Shown here one piece after another: positions 1,963 through 12,513 of a DNA stretch of 22,073 nucleotides. The notes beneath the pieces were generated by a model. It was given only the letters and a program-made list of their open reading frames with translations. It searched no databases and was not told the DNA's origin. Position numbers and translations under genes: made by a program. The DNA comes from a virus, in the IMG/VR virus record IMGVR_UViG_3300030110_002599, positions 1-22,073 of that record; one strand, 5' to 3'. Position 1 is the stretch's first letter. Every line of letters begins with the position of its first letter.

Positions 1963-3999
1963 ATGGCAATAACTAATTTATCATTAAATAATATTCAAAC
2001 ATACACAGTAGGTGGGGCTACTAATTATTTTGTACCTTTAAGATGGAATATACCTAACACAGATACTGAGTCTTTTTCATTTATATCTAATATAATAGGT
2101 TTTACTCCAGGGATACCTTCACTGAATGCTGACATTAATGGTCCTATAATGAGAATGGAACATCTTAAAGGAATAGTAACTAACCCTTCAGGAACGGCTC
2201 AAAATGAAAGAATAAGACATATGACTTCTGCTAATTGGAATTTAGGAGATTTAGCTAACATGTTTTTTATTGTATATGCAGGATCTTATAGAGTTATAAA
2301 TTGGTGTGATTCAACAACTATTTATAAAAATGGATCTTCACAAGGAACAATAACAAATGCAGGAACTATAACTACTTTAAGCTCTTTATCTGTTGGGGAT
2401 AGAATAGAATGTAATAAACCATATTCTTTGTATTACAACGGACTCCCAGGATTATATGGTGCTTACGCTGGATTTTCAGGCTATTCATTTGCTACTAGAA
2501 ATGATAGAGAATCAACTACAAATGGAAATAAATTTTATGTATTTTGTACAGATTTTGAACCAGATGCAAATACTGGAAGTTTTCTTAATATTAATTATAC
2601 TACTACAGGAAATTCAAATGTAACGTCTACAACAAATGATGTAGATGAAGAATTTTCTAGTCCTTTTGAAGAATTTAATACAAGTATGGTAAATGGTAGA
2701 GCATATTTTGCAGGTTCTAATGCTTTATTTTGTGCTTGGAGAGGGAGATCAACTGGATCATCATTATATGATTCTGTCCCGATGTATCCTTTAACCCCAG
2801 AACCAAAATATGGTTGGTATTCAAATGGGGGACATATATTAGCTTGCGCTGGACCTTATCAAGTTAGAGATGCATCAACTTCAAATTATCAAGTAAAAAC
2901 ACGTAATTCAACAACTTCAACAACAGAATTTTCTCTATCAACATCTGTAGAAAGATGGGCAAGAAATGACTCTAACACAGGAGCAAATACTGCAGCTAAA
3001 TTTGCAGGATCACCAGCAGTGACTTTTGCAGATCCAACAGGATCAAATGGTCAAGCTCCTTTATTTGCAGCTGAATCACAAGGTGATGGTGATGGAACTG
3101 AAATGACTCCTCACGTAGGATCAAATGCTTCATCAACATTTCATTGCAATCCAGGAGGAGGTAATTGGCAAGCACATATGAGTTTATTTACAGGAAGCGC
3201 AGGAGGAGGAGTAGTTCAAAGATTTAATTCATCAAGAACATTTGTTGAATCATATGCACTTGGTAACTCAACAAATGGTTTTACTAACACAACATCACAC
3301 CCATTTGCATCTTGTCGTTTTACTAATTTAAATGCTGGAGATGTTTTTGTTACTACACCTGCAAGAGGTGGAGGTCATTCACAATCATTAGCATGGGCTG
3401 ATATGGATAGTAGTGATGATGATGAAACATATTTACCTTCAGGTGATACTATGGATGGATTTTCATTTACAGCATGGACTATATATTATGATGAAGAAGA
3501 ATCAAGTTTTTTATCTACATCTGCTCTTGGTGCATGTGATTTAGAAGATAACACTATGACAATGTATAGTCCTTCAACATCAATACAAGCTGGTATGGTT
3601 TTTTATCTTCAAAATACTGATATTACAACTCCATTAAATATAATAACTGGAGCATCTGCAAGAGCAGAAAATGGATATTTAAAAGTACAGGATGGAAGAG
3701 ATTTTTACGCTGTAGAATTTGGATCATTTTCTAATGGTAGAGTTGAATCTGTTACTACTTGTTTATCAGACAGAAGACTTAAGAAAAATATTACAAAAGT
3801 AGGTACGTCACCTTCAGGAATTAACATTTATAGATTTGAATATATTGATTCTAAATTATATGGTGGAGGAGTATTTGAAGGAGTTATGGCACAAGAAGTA
3901 CCTAAAGCATCTATTTTAGGTAAAAATGGATACTATTCTGTGGATTATTCTAAACTAGATGTTACATTTAAACGAATAAATTATTCTTTAGTAGGTTAA
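1963..3999 (+). CDS. Tail fibre/adhesin with C-terminal S74 autoprocessing domain
   Basis: This 678-residue protein starts directly after the TAA of the preceding fibre. The first ~595 residues are rich in Ser, Thr, Asn, Gly and aromatic residues and have no family I recognise; they look like a beta-rich receptor-binding region. The C-terminal ~80 residues form a short S74 domain: SDRRLKKNI with the cleavage Ser at about residue 602, then GVMAQEVPKAS and a YYSVDYSKL segment. Self-cleavage before Ser602 would release a mature protein of about 600 residues. There are no collagen repeats, unlike its neighbour. It is probably a tail fibre or spike; its position next to the first fibre suggests the two are parts of one host-recognition apparatus. 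Confidence 0.75.
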   Translation: MAITNLSLNNIQTYTVGGATNYFVPLRWNIPNTDTESFSFISNIIGFTPGIPSLNADINGPIMRMEHLKGIVTNPSGTAQNERIRHMTSANWNLGDLANMFFIVYAGSYRVINWCDSTTIYKNGSSQGTITNAGTITTLSSLSVGDRIECNKPYSLYYNGLPGLYGAYAGFSGYSFATRNDRESTTNGNKFYVFCTDFEPDANTGSFLNINYTTTGNSNVTSTTNDVDEEFSSPFEEFNTSMVNGRAYFAGSNALFCAWRGRSTGSSLYDSVPMYPLTPEPKYGWYSNGGHILACAGPYQVRDASTSNYQVKTRNSTTSTTEFSLSTSVERWARNDSNTGANTAAKFAGSPAVTFADPTGSNGQAPLFAAESQGDGDGTEMTPHVGSNASSTFHCNPGGGNWQAHMSLFTGSAGGGVVQRFNSSRTFVESYALGNSTNGFTNTTSHPFASCRFTNLNAGDVFVTTPARGGGHSQSLAWADMDSSDDDETYLPSGDTMDGFSFTAWTIYYDEEESSFLSTSALGACDLEDNTMTMYSPSTSIQAGMVFYLQNTDITTPLNIITGASARAENGYLKVQDGRDFYAVEFGSFSNGRVESVTTCLSDRRLKKNITKVGTSPSGINIYRFEYIDSKLYGGGVFEGVMAQEVPKASILGKNGYYSVDYSKLDVTFKRINYSLVG

Positions 4000-4906: not shown

Positions 4907-7900
4907 ATGGCAGAAACATTAATTTCCCCAGGAGTATTAGCAAGAGAAAATGATCAATCTCAAGTAACTTCACAACCAATTCAGGCCGGTGCGGCTATCG
5001 TTGGACCAACTGTTTTAGGTAGTGTAAACATTCCTAAATTAGTAACGAGTTACTCAGAATATTTAGCAAATTTTGGTAGTACATTCTCAAGTGGATCAGA
5101 CGAATACACATACTTTACATCTATTTCAGCATATAATTACTTTCAAAATGGTGGTACATCATTAATAGTAAATAGAGTAGCTTCAGGATCATGGACTCCT
5201 GCAACTTCTTCAGTAATTCAAAATGATGTAACTAGTACGGCATTAAATCCTAGTCCTTATAACTTTACAGGATCAGCAGGAATAACAGGTAGAGGAGGTA
5301 CAGCTGGAACTTTTTCAGCAGTTGCTTCTACAAAAGATGGAGGAGCTTCTGATGCTACATTTAACGTAGTAAGAGGAACTTCAATAGGAAAAATATATAA
5401 TGGAACTGCTAACACAGTAGGAACTGCAGGTAGTTTTGCAGCATTAGTTGCTGCAGGTACTAACCCAGTAGATTGTCTTGTTAGTACAGTATTTGGATCT
5501 TCAACTCCAATTTCAGTAACTGGTGGTACAGGAACTGGAGCAACAGTTAAAGTTACAACTGGAACAGATTTAGGTACACAAAGAGGTACAATTACAGAAA
5601 TAGAAGTAATTAGTGGAGGAACAGGATATATAGCAGGTGACATAATAACAATTCCAGCAGGATCTTTAGGATCAGGAATGATTAAAGTAGCAGCTAAATC
5701 ACCAGATGCAGCAAATACAGTAGGTACAGCAACCCCAGGTACTCAAGTTATAACAGAAGGTACATCTGGAGCAGGTTCAAATACATACTCAGTAGCAAAT
5801 GGTACAGCTTCTTCAAAAGGATCAGGTGCTACATTTAATTGTATATTTAACTCATCAGCAGGAAAATTAATTCAATCTACTACAATAACAGGTGGTGGTG
5901 TAAATTTAACAGGTGCAACACCATCTCAAACTGCAACAGGATTAACATTAGCAGATTTAACAGCTAGTGGTGGTGGTATTACTGGTGGTGGATCAGGTGG
6001 TACATTTAGTTTAACCTCATCTGGAGCAGGTGTTATAACAACACTTACTATTACAGATGCTACAGGAGCTTCAGGATATACAACTTCTTCAGAAATAACA
6101 ATTAATGCAGCAGCAATGAATGCCTTATCAGGTACACCATTTGGTGGTGCTGTAGCAGGTGGTGGAGCAACTTTCACATTTGCTCAAGCTAATTTATTAA
6201 CAGAAGTAATTAGTATAACTCCAACAAATGCAACATTTGTAGAAGGATTCCAAGCAGGAAATACTATTACAATAGAATCTGGAAATATTACAGGAATTGA
6301 TAGTAATGTAGTATTTACATTATCTGCAGGTGATTTAGATAATTCATCAGCAGCAGTATCAGCTGCAATAGCAGTAAATGGTGGTAGTAATCAGGATACT
6401 AATAATAACTTAGTAATTGAACCAACTTCAATTGTGTTAGTTACACAAGGAGCTACTACATTTACCAATTTAAATGACATTGAAATAGCAGCCGGAGTAA
6501 TTGGTACACCAACAACAGCAATAGACATAGATTTACAAGATGCAGATTTAGTAGATGATGTAGCTTTTGAATTAGAAACATTATCTGATGGAACTATAAT
6601 GAATGTTGGAGATACAACAGGAGCAAATGGAACATTAACTGGTGGAACTTCTAATAATATTAGATGGGAAATACAAGGAAGAGATGTAGCAACTGGAACA
6701 TTTAGTGTAATTATTAGACAAGGTAATGATACACAAACAGCTAAAAGAGTATTAGAAATATTCCCTAATGTATCATTAGATCCAAAAGCATCAAATTACA
6801 TAGAAAGAATAATAGGTAATATGACAAAAGTATTTAATGGAGCTGGAACAACAGATCCATATATTAGTACAGTTGGAAACTACCCAGTATCTTCAAGATA
6901 CGTAAGAGTAAAATCAGTAACAGCTAAAACTCCAGATTATTTTGATAATAATGGAACAGCAAATCCAGCGTATGCTGATTTCTTACCAGATAATGCAAGT
7001 GGATCATTTGGTGGTGCTCAAGGAGAATTATTCTCTAAAACAGGATTCCCATCATATGCACAAGCTAAATATTATGATCAAATAACAGATGGTAATTCAC
7101 AAGGTATGACTTCAACAGAAGCACAAACATACACAGATGCATTTAATTTATTAGCAAATAAAGATGATTATCAATATAATATTATTTCTGCACCTGGTTT
7201 ATATTATGCATCTTCAACTTGGGCAACTCCAATGAATACCTTATTATCAAATACACAAGGAAGAGGAGATGCTATAGCAGTTATAGATGTAGTTAACTAC
7301 TCAGGAGGAACAGTTGCAACAGCAAAAACACAAGCTGCTTCAATTGATAATTCATATGCAGCAACTTATTGGCCTTGGGTTCAATTAAATGACCCAGATT
7401 CAAGACAGTTAGTATGGGCAGTACCATCAGCGGTTATTCCTGGTGTGTATGCGTTTAATGACAGAACAAGTGAAGCTTGGTTCGCTCCCGCTGGAATTAA
7501 CAGAGGTGGTTTAAGTACAGTAGTACAAGCACAAAGAAAATTAACTCAATCTAATAGAGATAGTTTATATACAGGTAAAGTAAACCCAATAGCTACATTC
7601 CCAGGAAGAGGAGTTGTAGTATTTGGACAGAAAACTTTACAATCAACAGCATCAGCATTAGATAGAATTAATGTTAGAAGATTATTAATAGCATTAAAAT
7701 CATTTATTGTACAGATTGCTGATAATTTAGTATTTGAACAAAACACAGCTGCAACAAGAAATAATTTCTTAGCGCAAGTAAATCCATTTTTAGAATCAGT
7801 ACAACAAAGACAAGGTTTATATGCCTTTAAAGTACAAATGGATGCTGCAAATAATGGACCAGATGTAGTTGATAGAAACCAAATGGTAGGTGCGATTTAT

Positions 7901-7978
7901 ATCCAACCAACTAAAACGGCTGAATTTATTTATTTAGATTTCAACATTTTACCAACTGGAGCTGAATTTCCATCATAA
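4907..7978 (+). CDS. Contractile tail sheath protein (gp18-like) with large insertion
   Basis: A 1023-residue sheath subunit, compared with about 660 residues for T4 gp18. The N-terminus (SPGVLARENDQSQ, then AAIVGPTVLGSVNIPKLVTS and a YFQNGGTSLIVNRV segment) and the C-terminal half from about residue 548 are recognisable sheath. The latter includes GTFSVIIRQGND, LDPKASNYIERIIGN, the RINVRRLLIALK helix and a closing DFNILPTGAEF. Between about residues 100 and 545 lies a Gly/Thr/Ala/Ser-rich insertion with GGTGTGATVKV and SGGTGYIAGDIITIP elements, probably beta-sandwich decoration domains facing outward. Sheath subunits stack around the tube and contract on infection. The tube gene follows directly, as in T4 (18-19). 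Identification is strong; the insertion's role is unknown. Confidence 0.92.
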   Translation: MAETLISPGVLARENDQSQVTSQPIQAGAAIVGPTVLGSVNIPKLVTSYSEYLANFGSTFSSGSDEYTYFTSISAYNYFQNGGTSLIVNRVASGSWTPATSSVIQNDVTSTALNPSPYNFTGSAGITGRGGTAGTFSAVASTKDGGASDATFNVVRGTSIGKIYNGTANTVGTAGSFAALVAAGTNPVDCLVSTVFGSSTPISVTGGTGTGATVKVTTGTDLGTQRGTITEIEVISGGTGYIAGDIITIPAGSLGSGMIKVAAKSPDAANTVGTATPGTQVITEGTSGAGSNTYSVANGTASSKGSGATFNCIFNSSAGKLIQSTTITGGGVNLTGATPSQTATGLTLADLTASGGGITGGGSGGTFSLTSSGAGVITTLTITDATGASGYTTSSEITINAAAMNALSGTPFGGAVAGGGATFTFAQANLLTEVISITPTNATFVEGFQAGNTITIESGNITGIDSNVVFTLSAGDLDNSSAAVSAAIAVNGGSNQDTNNNLVIEPTSIVLVTQGATTFTNLNDIEIAAGVIGTPTTAIDIDLQDADLVDDVAFELETLSDGTIMNVGDTTGANGTLTGGTSNNIRWEIQGRDVATGTFSVIIRQGNDTQTAKRVLEIFPNVSLDPKASNYIERIIGNMTKVFNGAGTTDPYISTVGNYPVSSRYVRVKSVTAKTPDYFDNNGTANPAYADFLPDNASGSFGGAQGELFSKTGFPSYAQAKYYDQITDGNSQGMTSTEAQTYTDAFNLLANKDDYQYNIISAPGLYYASSTWATPMNTLLSNTQGRGDAIAVIDVVNYSGGTVATAKTQAASIDNSYAATYWPWVQLNDPDSRQLVWAVPSAVIPGVYAFNDRTSEAWFAPAGINRGGLSTVVQAQRKLTQSNRDSLYTGKVNPIATFPGRGVVVFGQKTLQSTASALDRINVRRLLIALKSFIVQIADNLVFEQNTAATRNNFLAQVNPFLESVQQRQGLYAFKVQMDAANNGPDVVDRNQMVGAIYIQPTKTAEFIYLDFNILPTGAEFPS

Positions 7979-8023: not shown

Positions 8024-8512
8024 ATGGCAGTAGTAAATCCAAACGAAATGTTTTTCACAGCTTTTGAACCAAAAGTTGCCAATAGATTTATAATGTATGT
8101 AGATGGTATACCATCATATATGATCAAAGAAGTAGGTGAGATTAAGGTAGAGCAAGGTGAAATTGTACTTAATCACATTAATACTTATAGAAAAGTAAAA
8201 GGTAAAGCTAAATGGGCTGATGTGTCTATGACATTATATGACCCAATTACACCATCAGGAGCTCAAGCTGTTATGGAGTGGGTAAGATTACACCACGAAT
8301 CAGTAACAGGTAGAGATGGTTATTCTGATTTCTATAAAAAAGATGTAACTATTAATGTACTAGGACCTGTAGGTGATGTAGTATCAGAATGGATATTAAA
8401 AGGTTCATTTATTAAAGATGCAACATTTAAAGGATTTAATTGGGATACTGAAGCGGAAGCTCAAGATGTTTCATTAACTTTAGGAATGGATTACTGCGTA
8501 TTGAATTTCTAA
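8024..8512 (+). CDS. Tail tube protein (gp19-like)
   Basis: A 162-residue protein of the size expected for T4 gp19 (163 residues). It has the tube-protein layout: an N-terminal segment EPKVANRFIMYVDGIPSYMI, a strand-rich core (VEQGEIVLNHINTYRKVKGK), a central WADVSMTLYDPI segment, a helix QAVMEWVRLHHES, and a closing strand pair ending DVSLTLGMDYCVLNF. It forms the inner tube through which DNA passes, polymerising on the baseplate to a length set by the tape measure protein. It directly follows the sheath gene and is followed by a strong terminator, so sheath and tube appear to end one transcription unit. Confidence 0.9.
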   Translation: MAVVNPNEMFFTAFEPKVANRFIMYVDGIPSYMIKEVGEIKVEQGEIVLNHINTYRKVKGKAKWADVSMTLYDPITPSGAQAVMEWVRLHHESVTGRDGYSDFYKKDVTINVLGPVGDVVSEWILKGSFIKDATFKGFNWDTEAEAQDVSLTLGMDYCVLNF

Positions 8513-8612: not shown

Positions 8613-9362
8613 ATGAGTGAAGAAAAATTAAAATTCCCTACTGAAGTAGTTGAATTACCCTCAAATGGTATAGTTTACCCAAAAGACAACCCATTATCAT
8701 CTGGAAAAGTAGAAATGAAATACATGACTGCTAAAGAAGAAGATATTTTAACAAACCAATCATACATTCAAAAAGGTACAGTAATAGATAAATTATTAGA
8801 AGCTTTAATAGTATCAAAAGTAGATTATAAAGATTTAATAGTTGGTGATAAAAATGCTTTATTAATTGCTGCTAGAATATTAGGTTATGGTAGTGAGTAT
8901 GAATTTTCATACAGAAATGAAAAAGTTACAATAGATTTATCATCTTTAGAAAATAAAGAATTTGATAAATCTCAATTTGAACAAGGTAAAAATGAATTTC
9001 CATTTACTTGTCCAAAATCAGAAACAATGCTTACATTTAAACTTTTAACTCACAAAGATGAAACTAAAATTGATAATGAATTAAAAGGTTTAAAGAAAAT
9101 TAATAAAAATGCTTCACCTGAATTATCAACACGTCTTAAACACATGATTGTATCTGTAGATGGTTCTGATGATTCAAAAGATATTAGAAATTTTGTGGAT
9201 AATTACTTCTTAGCACAAGATTCAAGAGCATTTAGAAATTATGTCAGAGATTTTCAACCAGATGTTGATTTGTTAGTTGAAATTGACACATTAGAAGGAG
9301 GAGAGGAGGAGATCTCAGTGCCCATTGGGCTTAACTTTTTTTGGCCTGACACAGACATATAG
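8613..9362 (+). CDS. T4_baseplate/gp26-family protein, probable tail assembly chaperone
   Basis: A 249-residue protein of the T4 gp26 baseplate-hub family. The family signature is visible in the N-terminal VVELPSNGIVYPKDNPLSSG, in MTAKEEDILTNQSYIQKGTVID, in TFKLLTHKDETKID near the middle, and in the C-terminal VPIGLNFFWPD. T4 gp26 is classed as a hub component. Here, however, the gene lies between the tube and tape measure genes and its end overlaps a second ORF in the +1 frame, exactly where other tailed phages keep the G/G-T tail assembly chaperones. I therefore favour a chaperone that coats the tape measure protein. The start is the ATG after an A-rich leader (AAATAAAAGAT). Family call is good; the chaperone role is inference. 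Confidence 0.75.
   Translation: MSEEKLKFPTEVVELPSNGIVYPKDNPLSSGKVEMKYMTAKEEDILTNQSYIQKGTVIDKLLEALIVSKVDYKDLIVGDKNALLIAARILGYGSEYEFSYRNEKVTIDLSSLENKEFDKSQFEQGKNEFPFTCPKSETMLTFKLLTHKDETKIDNELKGLKKINKNASPELSTRLKHMIVSVDGSDDSKDIRNFVDNYFLAQDSRAFRNYVRDFQPDVDLLVEIDTLEGGEEEISVPIGLNFFWPDTDI
9295..9342 (+). promoter_or_regulatory. Candidate programmed +1/-2 ribosomal frameshift signal
   Basis: A purine run (aaggaggagaggaggag, 9295-9311) resembling a strong internal Shine-Dalgarno is followed by a small GCCC-ATT-GGGC stem (9320-9330) and then AAC followed by seven T residues (9336-9342). Slippage on the T run by +1 or -2 moves ribosomes from the gp26-like frame into the downstream ORF before the TAG at 9360. 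Codons here (GAG, GTG, CCC, GGG, CTT) are G/C-rich compared with flanking genes, hinting at selection on the RNA itself. Confidence 0.5.
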
Positions 9363-9645
9363 AGTAAGCTTATTTGCTCAAATTCATGACATAGTATTTC
9401 ATGGTAAGGGTGGTTACGATTGGCATACTATTTATAATATGCCTATATGGTTACGTAATTTTACTTTTCAAAAAATAAATGAGTTTTATGTAGAAGAAAA
9501 CGCTAGAGTTAAAAAAGCCCAAGGAAATAGTGGTAATACTAAATCACTAACTACAGATGGTAAAGTAACAGCTCCTGAATTTCTTAAACATGCTAAAAAA
9601 CAACCCTCAAAACCTACTTATTCAACAAAGGCATCTAAAAAATAG
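9325..9645 (+). CDS. Downstream extension (T-like) ORF, probably made by frameshift from the gp26-like gene
   Basis: This +1-frame ORF is open from just after a TAG at 9292-9294 to the stop at 9643-9645. It has no ATG before 9439, which falls inside its conserved part, and only a TTG at 9325. The protein has a recognisable segment YRVSLFAQIHDIVFHGKGGY followed by WHTIYNMPIWLRNFTFQKI, then a Lys-rich flexible tail. Slippage at 9336-9342 would produce a fusion of about 343 residues, joining the gp26-like protein to this domain. Genes like this next to tape measure genes usually act as the longer tail assembly chaperone. Independent initiation at TTG remains possible; the start coordinate here is nominal. 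Confidence 0.65.
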   Translation: MGLTFFGLTQTYRVSLFAQIHDIVFHGKGGYDWHTIYNMPIWLRNFTFQKINEFYVEENARVKKAQGNSGNTKSLTTDGKVTAPEFLKHAKKQPSKPTYSTKASKK

Positions 9646-9676: not shown

Positions 9677-12082
9677 ATGGCTGACAATTTTAAGCAAAAT
9701 AAAAAAAACGCACAAGAGTTTAATAAAGAATTAGGCTATATTGAGGATCAAATTCTTAATATAGCTGCTTCCTTATCTGGTGCAGTTAAAGATGCTCTTG
9801 AAGATTTAAAGGATGAAGGAAAGCAAGTTGGTGAAATATTAGTAAATAAAGTTGATAAAGGGATAAAATCATTAGCTAAAGGACTTGATCTTACATTAAG
9901 AAACCAAATAAAACTAGAAAAAGGGTTGTTAAGTTCTGCTGACATCTCTCAGCAATTATTAGATAATGAAGCAAAAAAGCAAGGTGTCCTTAATGGAATT
10001 CAACAATTAGTAGATCAGAAATTACTTAAAGATGGCGAGGAAGCTAAGCTGAAGGCTGAACTTAATGAAGCTATGAAATTTAGTAATGATTTATTAAAAC
10101 AACAATTAGCAGAAGCAACAGAGATTGAAAAAAAAATGGGTGCTATCGGGGGAATAGTAAAAGGGATTTCCAAAATCCCCATAATTGGAGAATTAATTAA
10201 TGCTGATGAAATACTAGGAAAAATCCAAGCAAAAGCAGCTAAAACAGAAGGAGCTTTTGCAGGACTTGAAATAGCAGCTTTTGGAATTGGGCAAATATTA
10301 GGTAGTGCTTTTGAAACTTTAACTGACCCAACAGTTATATTTACCGGTCTTTTAAAAGCAGCAGGAGAAATTTCAAAACAACAAAAAGAATTTAGATCCT
10401 TAACAGGACAAAATGTAGATATAACTAATGCTTTAGGTGCAGAATTTGTTACAACAGGTGAATATATAAAAGCAGCAACAGAGTTATCTAAAGAATTAGG
10501 AGTTAATGCTGCAGTTGTATTCTCTCCTGAAACAATTAAAGAGGTAGCAGAATTAACTGAAAATATGGGATTAGGTGCTCATGAAGCAGCCCAATTAGCT
10601 AAATTTGCTAAAATATCTGGTAAACCTCTATCAGAAGTTACAGCTAATGTAGAGGCATCATTTAAATCTTTTGTTGGGCAGAATAATACAGCTATGAATT
10701 TTGCAGATGTAATGAATGACGTAGGAAGTGTTTCAGCAGCTACTTCATTATCATTAGGTAGTTCAGCAGAAGCAGTACAAGAAGCTGCTATGCAAGCTAG
10801 AAAATTAGGTTTATCTTTAGAACAAGTAGATCAAATAGCAGGTTCAATATTAGATTTTGAATCTTCTATTCAGGCAGAAATGGAAGCTGAATTACTTACA
10901 GGTAAACAATTAAATTTAGATAGAGCTAGAGCACTAGCACTTAATAATGATTTAGCAGGTTTATCTGAAGAAATAGGTAATAATACAGAAATATTAGCAG
11001 CATTTTCATCTGGTAATAGAATACAACAAGAAGCTACAGCTAAAGCTTTAGGTATGAGTAGAGAAGAAGTTGCTAAAATGATCTACAACCAAAAACTACA
11101 AAATAATTTATCAGATGAACAAGCAGCAAAAGCAGCAGGTATATCTTTAGAAGAAGCAAAACGATTAAGTATACAACAACAGATAGAAAAATCAGTAGCT
11201 AAAATAACTGAAGCATTAGCTGGTCCTTTAACATTAGTAGCAGATTTATTATCAAATACAGCAGTTCTTTATCTTACAGTAACAGCTATTGGAGCTTCTT
11301 TAGCAACTAAAGCAGCTCCTGCTTTAAAAAGTATGGCTAAAAATATGTTTGATTTAGGTAAAGGAGCCCTAACTTATGTTAAAAACTTAATGAAAGGACA
11401 AGGTATACTTGGTTCTTTAAAAGGAGCAGGAGGAGATGGTAAAGCTGGTGATGTAATGGAAAAAGTAACAAAGTCAACATCAAAAATAAAACCAGGAGCT
11501 GGAAAAATGATACAAAGCTTTCTTACAGGACTTGGAAAAGGTCTATCAGCTCTTGGTAAAGCTGTAATGGGTCCACAAGCAGTAGGTATAGCAATAGGTA
11601 TAGGTTTAGTATCCGTAGGAGTAATAGCTTTAGGAGCAGCTTTAGGATTAGCAGCCCCAGCAATAAAAGCATTTGGTACTGTAGTAACTGCAGTATTTGA
11701 AGGTATAGGTTCTATAATAACAGCAGTAGCAGATGGATTTGTTAAAATAATGGAAGCAGTTTCAATGGAAAATATTACTCCAATGTTACTATTAGGACCT
11801 GCATTATTTGGTATTGCAGGAGGACTTTTAGCTATAGGATTAGCTGGATTAACAGCTTTACCTGTATTAGCTGGTTTAGGAGCTTTAGCTTTAGTAGCTA
11901 CTCCATTACTTGAATTAGCTGGTGTATTTGGTGGGGGAGATGGAGGAGGAGGAGATGATACTTCTCAAATAGTCGAAAAATTAGATAAATTAATAGCCGT
12001 GGTAGAAAAAGGAGGTAATGTTTATATGGATGGTAATAAAGTAGGAAAGAGCTTAGTAATTGCATCTTCTGGAATAGGTTAA
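9677..12082 (+). CDS. Tail tape measure protein
   Basis: An 801-residue protein with the usual tape measure plan. There is a long helical, charged N-terminal region (residues ~10-150), Ala/Leu/Glu-rich helices through ~520, two hydrophobic stretches near residues 635-665 and 700-750 (VGIAIGIGLVSVGVIALG and LLLGPALFGIAGGLLAIGL), and a small closing strand domain GNVYMDGNKVGKSLV after a Gly/Asp-rich linker. It sets tail length and is ejected ahead of the DNA; the hydrophobic segments may help cross the host membrane. Position after the candidate chaperone pair supports the call. T4's counterpart gp29 is about 590 residues, so a somewhat longer tail is expected if scaling holds. Sequence similarity to gp29 itself was not evident by eye. 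Confidence 0.88.
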   Translation: MADNFKQNKKNAQEFNKELGYIEDQILNIAASLSGAVKDALEDLKDEGKQVGEILVNKVDKGIKSLAKGLDLTLRNQIKLEKGLLSSADISQQLLDNEAKKQGVLNGIQQLVDQKLLKDGEEAKLKAELNEAMKFSNDLLKQQLAEATEIEKKMGAIGGIVKGISKIPIIGELINADEILGKIQAKAAKTEGAFAGLEIAAFGIGQILGSAFETLTDPTVIFTGLLKAAGEISKQQKEFRSLTGQNVDITNALGAEFVTTGEYIKAATELSKELGVNAAVVFSPETIKEVAELTENMGLGAHEAAQLAKFAKISGKPLSEVTANVEASFKSFVGQNNTAMNFADVMNDVGSVSAATSLSLGSSAEAVQEAAMQARKLGLSLEQVDQIAGSILDFESSIQAEMEAELLTGKQLNLDRARALALNNDLAGLSEEIGNNTEILAAFSSGNRIQQEATAKALGMSREEVAKMIYNQKLQNNLSDEQAAKAAGISLEEAKRLSIQQQIEKSVAKITEALAGPLTLVADLLSNTAVLYLTVTAIGASLATKAAPALKSMAKNMFDLGKGALTYVKNLMKGQGILGSLKGAGGDGKAGDVMEKVTKSTSKIKPGAGKMIQSFLTGLGKGLSALGKAVMGPQAVGIAIGIGLVSVGVIALGAALGLAAPAIKAFGTVVTAVFEGIGSIITAVADGFVKIMEAVSMENITPMLLLGPALFGIAGGLLAIGLAGLTALPVLAGLGALALVATPLLELAGVFGGGDGGGGDDTSQIVEKLDKLIAVVEKGGNVYMDGNKVGKSLVIASSGIG

Positions 12083-12117: not shown

Positions 12118-12513
12118 ATGGCACAATCATTAAGGAATAAATTTGACTCAGAGGGATCAAGATTAGGATATCCTATATCACCAGCTTCTCCTCAACCTAT
12201 GGCTCCGTCACCATCGTTGCCATCAACAATGCATAATAAATACTCATTAGAAAATGATCCATCGGAATTATTAGTATCTCCAAGATATGATAATACTGGT
12301 ACAACTGTACCTTATCCTCAACCTACTAAATTAAAACCTCTTGGAGGCCCTTCAAATAATTTAGCAGCAGCTGCAGGATTTGAAGTATATAATAATCAAC
12401 AAACATATGATGATTTTATATTAAATCAAGGTGCAGGAGGTGCATTAGCAGCAGCTAGATTTCAAGGAACTGGAGATACCTTCTTAGGTACTTTAGCTAG
12501 TAATTCTAATTAA
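12118..12513 (+). CDS. Unknown Pro/Ser-rich tail-module protein
   Basis: A 131-residue protein with no family I recognise. The first ~45 residues are rich in Pro and Ser (YPISPASPQPMAPSPSLPS) and look disordered. A second Pro-containing segment (TVPYPQPTKLKPLGGPS) follows, then an Ala/Gly-rich C-terminus (NLAAAAGFEVYNN, GAGGALAAARFQGTG) that may be short helices. There is no signal peptide, membrane segment or cysteine. It lies between the tape measure and the large baseplate gene, with a promoter-like motif upstream and a 30-nt gap downstream. In T4 the corresponding place holds tube-cap genes; a linker or assembly factor of the baseplate is possible, from position only. Confidence 0.65.
   Translation: MAQSLRNKFDSEGSRLGYPISPASPQPMAPSPSLPSTMHNKYSLENDPSELLVSPRYDNTGTTVPYPQPTKLKPLGGPSNNLAAAAGFEVYNNQQTYDDFILNQGAGGALAAARFQGTGDTFLGTLASNSN

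Follow-up and report, generated by a model that had tools for sequence, protein, structure and literature searches.

Frameshifting in tail assembly chaperone genes is widely conserved, with T4 as an exception, and slips of -1, -2, or +1 are known (PMC5009743). In phage lambda, a short form (gpG) and a long form (gpGT) are made from one locus through a -1 frameshift near the end of the first ORF. T4 gp26 and gp51 (PF12322/phrog_150) are encoded by two separate genes, found on opposite strands in the T4 record, and no frameshift is involved. Vladimirov et al. 2022 (Virology 566:9-15) are said to have identified gp26 and gp51 as tail assembly chaperones. A 2010 paper had given the two proteins as hub assembly chaperones (PMC3004832), and passages in two later papers credit the 2022 study with the tail assembly role (PMC12846349, PMC10885494), with separate short and long genes described in some T4-like phages (PMC10885494). 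Other members of the same family, at the gp26 loci of KVP40, cyanophage Bellamy, XacN1, and Atu_ph07, enter the -1 frame at T TTT TTC or T TTT TTA, as do RAS14 and a group of huge phages. The use of -1 by T4-like relatives, like the chaperone role of gp26/gp51 in T4, has already been published.

The window analyzed here is the whole of a 22,073-nucleotide stretch of viral DNA (IMG/VR record IMGVR_UViG_3300030110_002599, positions 1 to 22,073), which carries a T4-like tail module comprising sheath, tube, ORF1, ORF2, and tape measure genes (Table 1). The ORF that follows ORF2 has homology (E 9e-53) to the tape measure protein annotated in Flavobacterium phage immuto, and in all 102 relatives with enough sequence a long ORF begins at most 160 nt past the ORF2 stop. 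The arrangement resembles that of lambda gpG/gpGT in its location between the tube and tape measure genes and in that a single locus is predicted to give both a short and a long product, the slip falling close to where the first ORF ends. It differs in that the second ORF lies in the +1 frame, the N part is larger and of the gp26 family, and the phage is contractile tailed.

Table 1. Features of the tail module and of the ORF1/ORF2 junction (positions in the window)
Feature	Position	Strand	Evidence or remark
Tail sheath protein gene	4907-7978		
Tail tube gene	8024..8512	+	phrog_4542 E 8.5e-21; Phage_T4_gp19 E 3.8e-5
ORF1, 249 aa, short form (TAC-N), gp26-like	8613..9362	+	phrog_150 E 2.6e-10; AlphaFold2 pLDDT 91.9
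Predicted long form, frame 0 to slip, then +1	8613..9645	+	phrog_150 7-270/282, E 1.6e-11
G/C-rich codon segment, with purine (Shine-Dalgarno-like) run 9293-9312	9291..9335	+	GC content; anti-Shine-Dalgarno energy
ORF2 (TAC-C domain), +1 frame	9295..9645	+	Family alignment; +1 offset in 154/156 relatives; longer phrog_150 match of the fusion
Small stem GCCC/GGGC	9320-9323/9327-9330		Present in window
Slippery site UUU UUU UGG (frame 0)	9336..9344	+	Conserved in 121/121 distinct junctions
Proposed P-site codon UUU at +1 slip (alternative 9336-9338)	9339..9341	+	Inferred from re-pairing analysis
TGA in -1 frame, within conserved CCTGAC; a -1 slip would terminate here	9347..9349	+	
Tape measure protein gene	9677..12082	+	Homology to annotated phage immuto protein

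ORF1 ends in ...GLN FFW PDTDI*, the TAG codon at 9360-9362 terminating the short form, and the +1 frame at the overlap reads ...FFGLTQTYRVSLFAQIHDIVFHGKGGYDWHTIYNMPIWLRNFTF.... ORF2 is open from 9295 to its stop codon at 9643-9645; its conserved part starts at GGC 9343, and the sole ATG, GTG, or TTG before that point is TTG 9325. The T run occupies exactly 9336-9342, read as AAC TTT TTT TGG in frame 0 and as ACT TTT TTT GGC in frame +1. A first-pass annotation, made from the letters of the window, had described a +1-frame second ORF that overlaps the first and has no ATG before its conserved part, AAC plus seven T residues at the overlap, and the gene order tube, ORF1, ORF2, tape measure; the ORF map bears out the former points, and the phrog_4542 and immuto homologies the last. 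As expected of a G/GT-type chaperone, an overlapping ORF pair, the second without a start of its own, thus lies between the tube and tape measure genes. Translation across the junction gives a predicted long form of 343 aa if the slip is +1, with one extra Phe if it is -2.

The match of ORF1 alone to phrog_150 (gp26/gp51) covers positions 7-170 of 282, and that of the fused protein extends nearly to the end of the profile. The T4 gp26 match runs to 235 and that of gp51 to 280, and the C domain of a cyanophage gp51 matches 231-281. The extents of these matches make gp26 the short and gp51 the long paralogue, and the counterpart of the frameshift product would be gp51, which likewise covers almost the whole of phrog_150. 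The N part therefore matches the family profile and the long form covers the gp51 C-terminal part. The initial assignment of ORF1 to the gp26 family is upheld by the profile and by structure, although the window ORF1 has no Pfam match, PF12322 included; this family is matched by the relatives RM378, GXN1, and LIS04. ORF1 and ORF2 were folded separately. The AlphaFold2 model of ORF1 resembles predicted phage gp26/'baseplate hub' proteins (best E 5e-20), among them Gp26 of Aeromonas phage 25 (E 3e-4). Among PDB structures, the HK97 tail assembly chaperone 2OB9 ranks first (E 3.3, TM 0.40 by target length), a nonsignificant similarity that offers only a hint. ORF2 is predicted to be helical, with no significant structural match in a fold search. 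Sequence searches of the PDB gave no matches, and single-sequence hhalign comparisons with T4 gp26/gp51 gave only short weak matches, so the identity of the product comes by the profile route. It had also been suggested that, if the frameshift is correct, gp26-family proteins in this lineage act as tail chaperones and not as hub parts; the chaperone reading is supported, and the inference itself was already in print.

To see how the junction is kept among relatives, viral contigs carrying both ORFs were compared. ORF2 lies at the same +1 offset in 154 of 156, the only exceptions (L003 and L095) being a single contig that contains Ns and seems to have gained one base upstream. Each of the 121 distinct junctions retains TTTTTTTGGCCT, TTTCTTTGGCCT, or TTTTTTTTCCCT, the site being TTTTTTTGG in 105, TTTCTTTGG in 12, and TTTTTTTTC in 4. 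Fifteen bases, TTTTTTTGGCCTGAC, are near-invariant (101 junctions identical, 12 with TTTCTTTGG, and 4 with TTTTTTTTCCC), and most flanking positions carry 0.1 to 1 bit only. Relative to the first T of the run (T1), the first -1-frame stop is at T1+11 in 121/121, and the 0-frame stop lies 18 to 36 nt after T1 in all. Before the conserved part of ORF2, the +1 frame has no ATG in 103 of the 121 junctions and no ATG, GTG, or TTG in 51. The T run and the missing start, for which a homologue comparison had been proposed as the check, are therefore both conserved, and a conserved recoding site is present at the overlap, as in G/GT-type chaperones. TTTTTTTGG occurs once in the window, and since about one copy is expected by chance in so AT-rich a sequence, the motif alone proves nothing; it is the conservation that carries the case. 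To avoid circularity, the 17-mer ACTTTTTTTGGCCTGAC was searched without a protein query against 2.9 million viral contigs. Among the matches listed (at least 119 loci), 119/119 encode ORF1 in frame 0 and 117/117 that could be assessed have ORF2 in +1, the sequence of the other two stopping within 24 nt of the motif. Coding in both frames (W-P-D and G-L-T) can account for much of GGCCTGAC, and less easily for the T run, which sits at wobble positions. The same TTTTTTTGG with a +1 continuation is found in phage RM378, which is about 24% identical.

Taken together with the neighboring genes, the conserved T run and missing start support the central claim of the first-pass annotation, that a gp26-family protein is joined to a downstream domain by a programmed frameshift and acts as a tail chaperone. 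We consider it probable that ORF1 and ORF2 constitute one gene for a G/GT-type (gp26/gp51) tail assembly chaperone, with the long form made by programmed +1 frameshifting. Ordinary translation would yield an abundant short form. When UUU paired with Phe-tRNA occupies the P site and UGG the A site, a fraction of ribosomes would move forward by one base along the U run (UUU to UUU) and continue into ORF2. The product would be a rarer long form whose C-terminal domain is helical. On the lambda model, the tape measure protein would be coated by the N part and tail tube subunits recruited by the C domain, and neither form would stay in the virion. The proposed slip resembles that of bacterial prfB (CUU UGA), where a P-site pyrimidine-UU slips +1 onto UUU, and TTTCTTTGG contains CUU U; it differs in having UGG and not a stop codon in the A site and in the distance of the purine run from the P site, about 27 nt compared with 3 nt in prfB. 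Several observations count against +1 frameshifting as described. At its third base, which closes the first Phe codon, the run has T in 121/121, although 14% of ORF1 Phe codons are TTC; a slip at the second codon alone does not require this invariance. UGG is not obviously a slow codon, and four sequences have UUC in its place. The fusion is also not essential everywhere, as ORF2 is a separate gene in two relatives.

The direction of the slip was addressed by tabulating re-pairing at eleven site types from +1-frame lineages. UUU re-pairs fully at +1 in 11/11. A -2 slip, suggested at the outset on the model of phage Mu, would leave the frameshift and chaperone unchanged, with Phe-tRNA moving back two bases and one more Phe incorporated, so that the junction peptide of phage immuto would be VSFLFGLTPEYR. 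Mu, a myophage, likewise reaches the +1 frame in its tail chaperone (PMC5009743), and -2 pairs as well as +1 at the U7 of the window, with full re-pairing also allowed at U8 sites, RM378, SP-15, L170, and LIS04; the invariant T at the third base of the run also speaks for it. However, -2 re-pairing fails at 4/11 site types, namely, group A (TTCTTTTGG; GGC TTC TTT TGG), Streptococcus phage GXN1, and Streptomyces phage BRock, where a middle-position mismatch would be needed, and LR756508, all of which allow perfect +1 re-pairing. Because +1 pairs everywhere and -2 fails at four types, +1 is the simplest shared mechanism and explains present sites better; we regard -2 as unlikely, with a modest chance of being correct.

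Slippage by RNA polymerase on T7, producing mRNAs with altered numbers of U from which ORF2 would be read without any ribosomal slip, would suit a homopolymeric run that is T8 in four relatives. It is nonetheless very unlikely, as the TTTCTTT (12/121) and TTCTTTT (group A) sites keep the same frame relation with no run longer than 4 and are poor substrates for such slippage. That ORF2 is a separate gene, translated from TTG 9325 or CTG 9346 with the purine run as its ribosome-binding site, is scarcely credible: TTG 9325 does lie 12 nt past the purine run, and L181 and L186 have an independent ORF2 with its own ATG, but a +1-frame stop within 8 nt of T1 makes an upstream start impossible in 53/121 relatives and the invariant U run is left unexplained.

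In L181 (1501-2540) and L186 (1501-2510), the ORF2 homologue stands directly after ORF1. An ORF2 with its own ATG had been named in advance as a case that would speak against a frameshift, and such cases do occur; a quick tree nests both relatives in the frameshifting clade, within the group carrying TTTCTTTGG (support of 99 for the group and 95 for the enclosing node, with some inner branches open). They look like derived losses by this phylogeny and not a refutation. Long branches outside the main clade leave the deep order of the tree unsure.

The segment ahead of the slip site has an unusual composition. The 15 codons leading up to the T run have a GC content of 49%, compared with 29% in the ORF1 body, and the value is higher in 121/121; at third codon positions (GC3) it is 48% versus 15%. 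The purine run ends 23 nt before T1, and the anti-Shine-Dalgarno duplex energy is lowest at -32 to -25, with a mean of -8.7 kcal/mol compared with -5.5 kcal/mol for synonymous recoding. Both the G/A-rich Shine-Dalgarno-like run and the unusually G/C-rich codons had been reported in the first-pass annotation and were recovered here. Outside the main clade, in small samples of related sequences, an elevated GC3 is seen in 11 of the 12 other loci tested from +1 lineages, clearly in only 1 of 6 loci using -1, and in neither of 2 split-gene loci. Shine-Dalgarno stimulators act at a distance of 3 nt in prfB and about 10 nt in dnaX, and we know of none that acts from as far as 25 to 30 nt. The 45-nt segment is a new observation; going by composition and predicted duplex energy, it is possible, though doubtful, that it is a new long-range cis element promoting +1 frameshifting from about 25 to 30 nt upstream.

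Two other roles were considered for this region and rejected. As a ribosome-binding site for ORF2, the purine run would have to do with a start codon, and its mean energy is the same in the 53 junctions without a start (-8.67 kcal/mol) as in the 65 with a possible start (-8.66 kcal/mol). The GCCC/GGGC stem noted earlier is present in the window and is not conserved: RNAalifold found no consensus structure on the 121 junctions, and folding z-scores just upstream of the slip are only about -0.7, so it was discarded as a frameshift element.

Annotation pipelines split the gene, and its first half is usually labeled 'baseplate hub'. Phages with the motif form a large and very common group among uncultured T4-related phages of aquatic origin, and many of their annotations are put in question. 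Deposited annotations of ORF2 in immuto, RM378, and Mel-JY01 (L159:5851-5961, L161:4701-4877, and L160:5746-5982) begin at internal or arbitrary codons because the frameshift apparently went unrecognized. C domains in the -1 frame (L195, L196, L197, L198, L199, L167, L191, and L193) are annotated as separate small genes or are unannotated. One chaperone family would have four decodings, a +1 slip, a -1 slip, a split gene, and duplicated short and long genes. The slips of both directions fall at the same Phe-Phe codon pair, in KVP40, Bellamy, XacN1, Atu_ph07, RAS14, and the huge phages as in the +1 lineage, making a natural experiment on the evolution of slip direction, and the end of T4 gene 26 retains TTC TTT. 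The +1 lineage seems to be new, no account of it having been found in a literature search that covered mainly open-access papers. As a test case for forward (+1) frameshifting it is unusually clear, and since phage immuto (TTTCTTTGG) is a cultured relative, the mechanism is directly testable.

Elsewhere in the window, a 131-aa ORF (12118-12513), which follows the tape measure gene and precedes the next long ORF, gave no Pfam or PHROGs match. Positions 1-1962 encode a collagen-like protein with GTSG/GSSG repeats and a terminal Peptidase_S74 endosialidase-chaperone domain, probably a tail fiber, and positions 1963-3999 a second protein with a weak S74 match. The tail sheath protein is 1,023 aa long, with recognized sheath domains confined to residues 743-1014 and a long glycine/threonine-rich stretch ahead of them.
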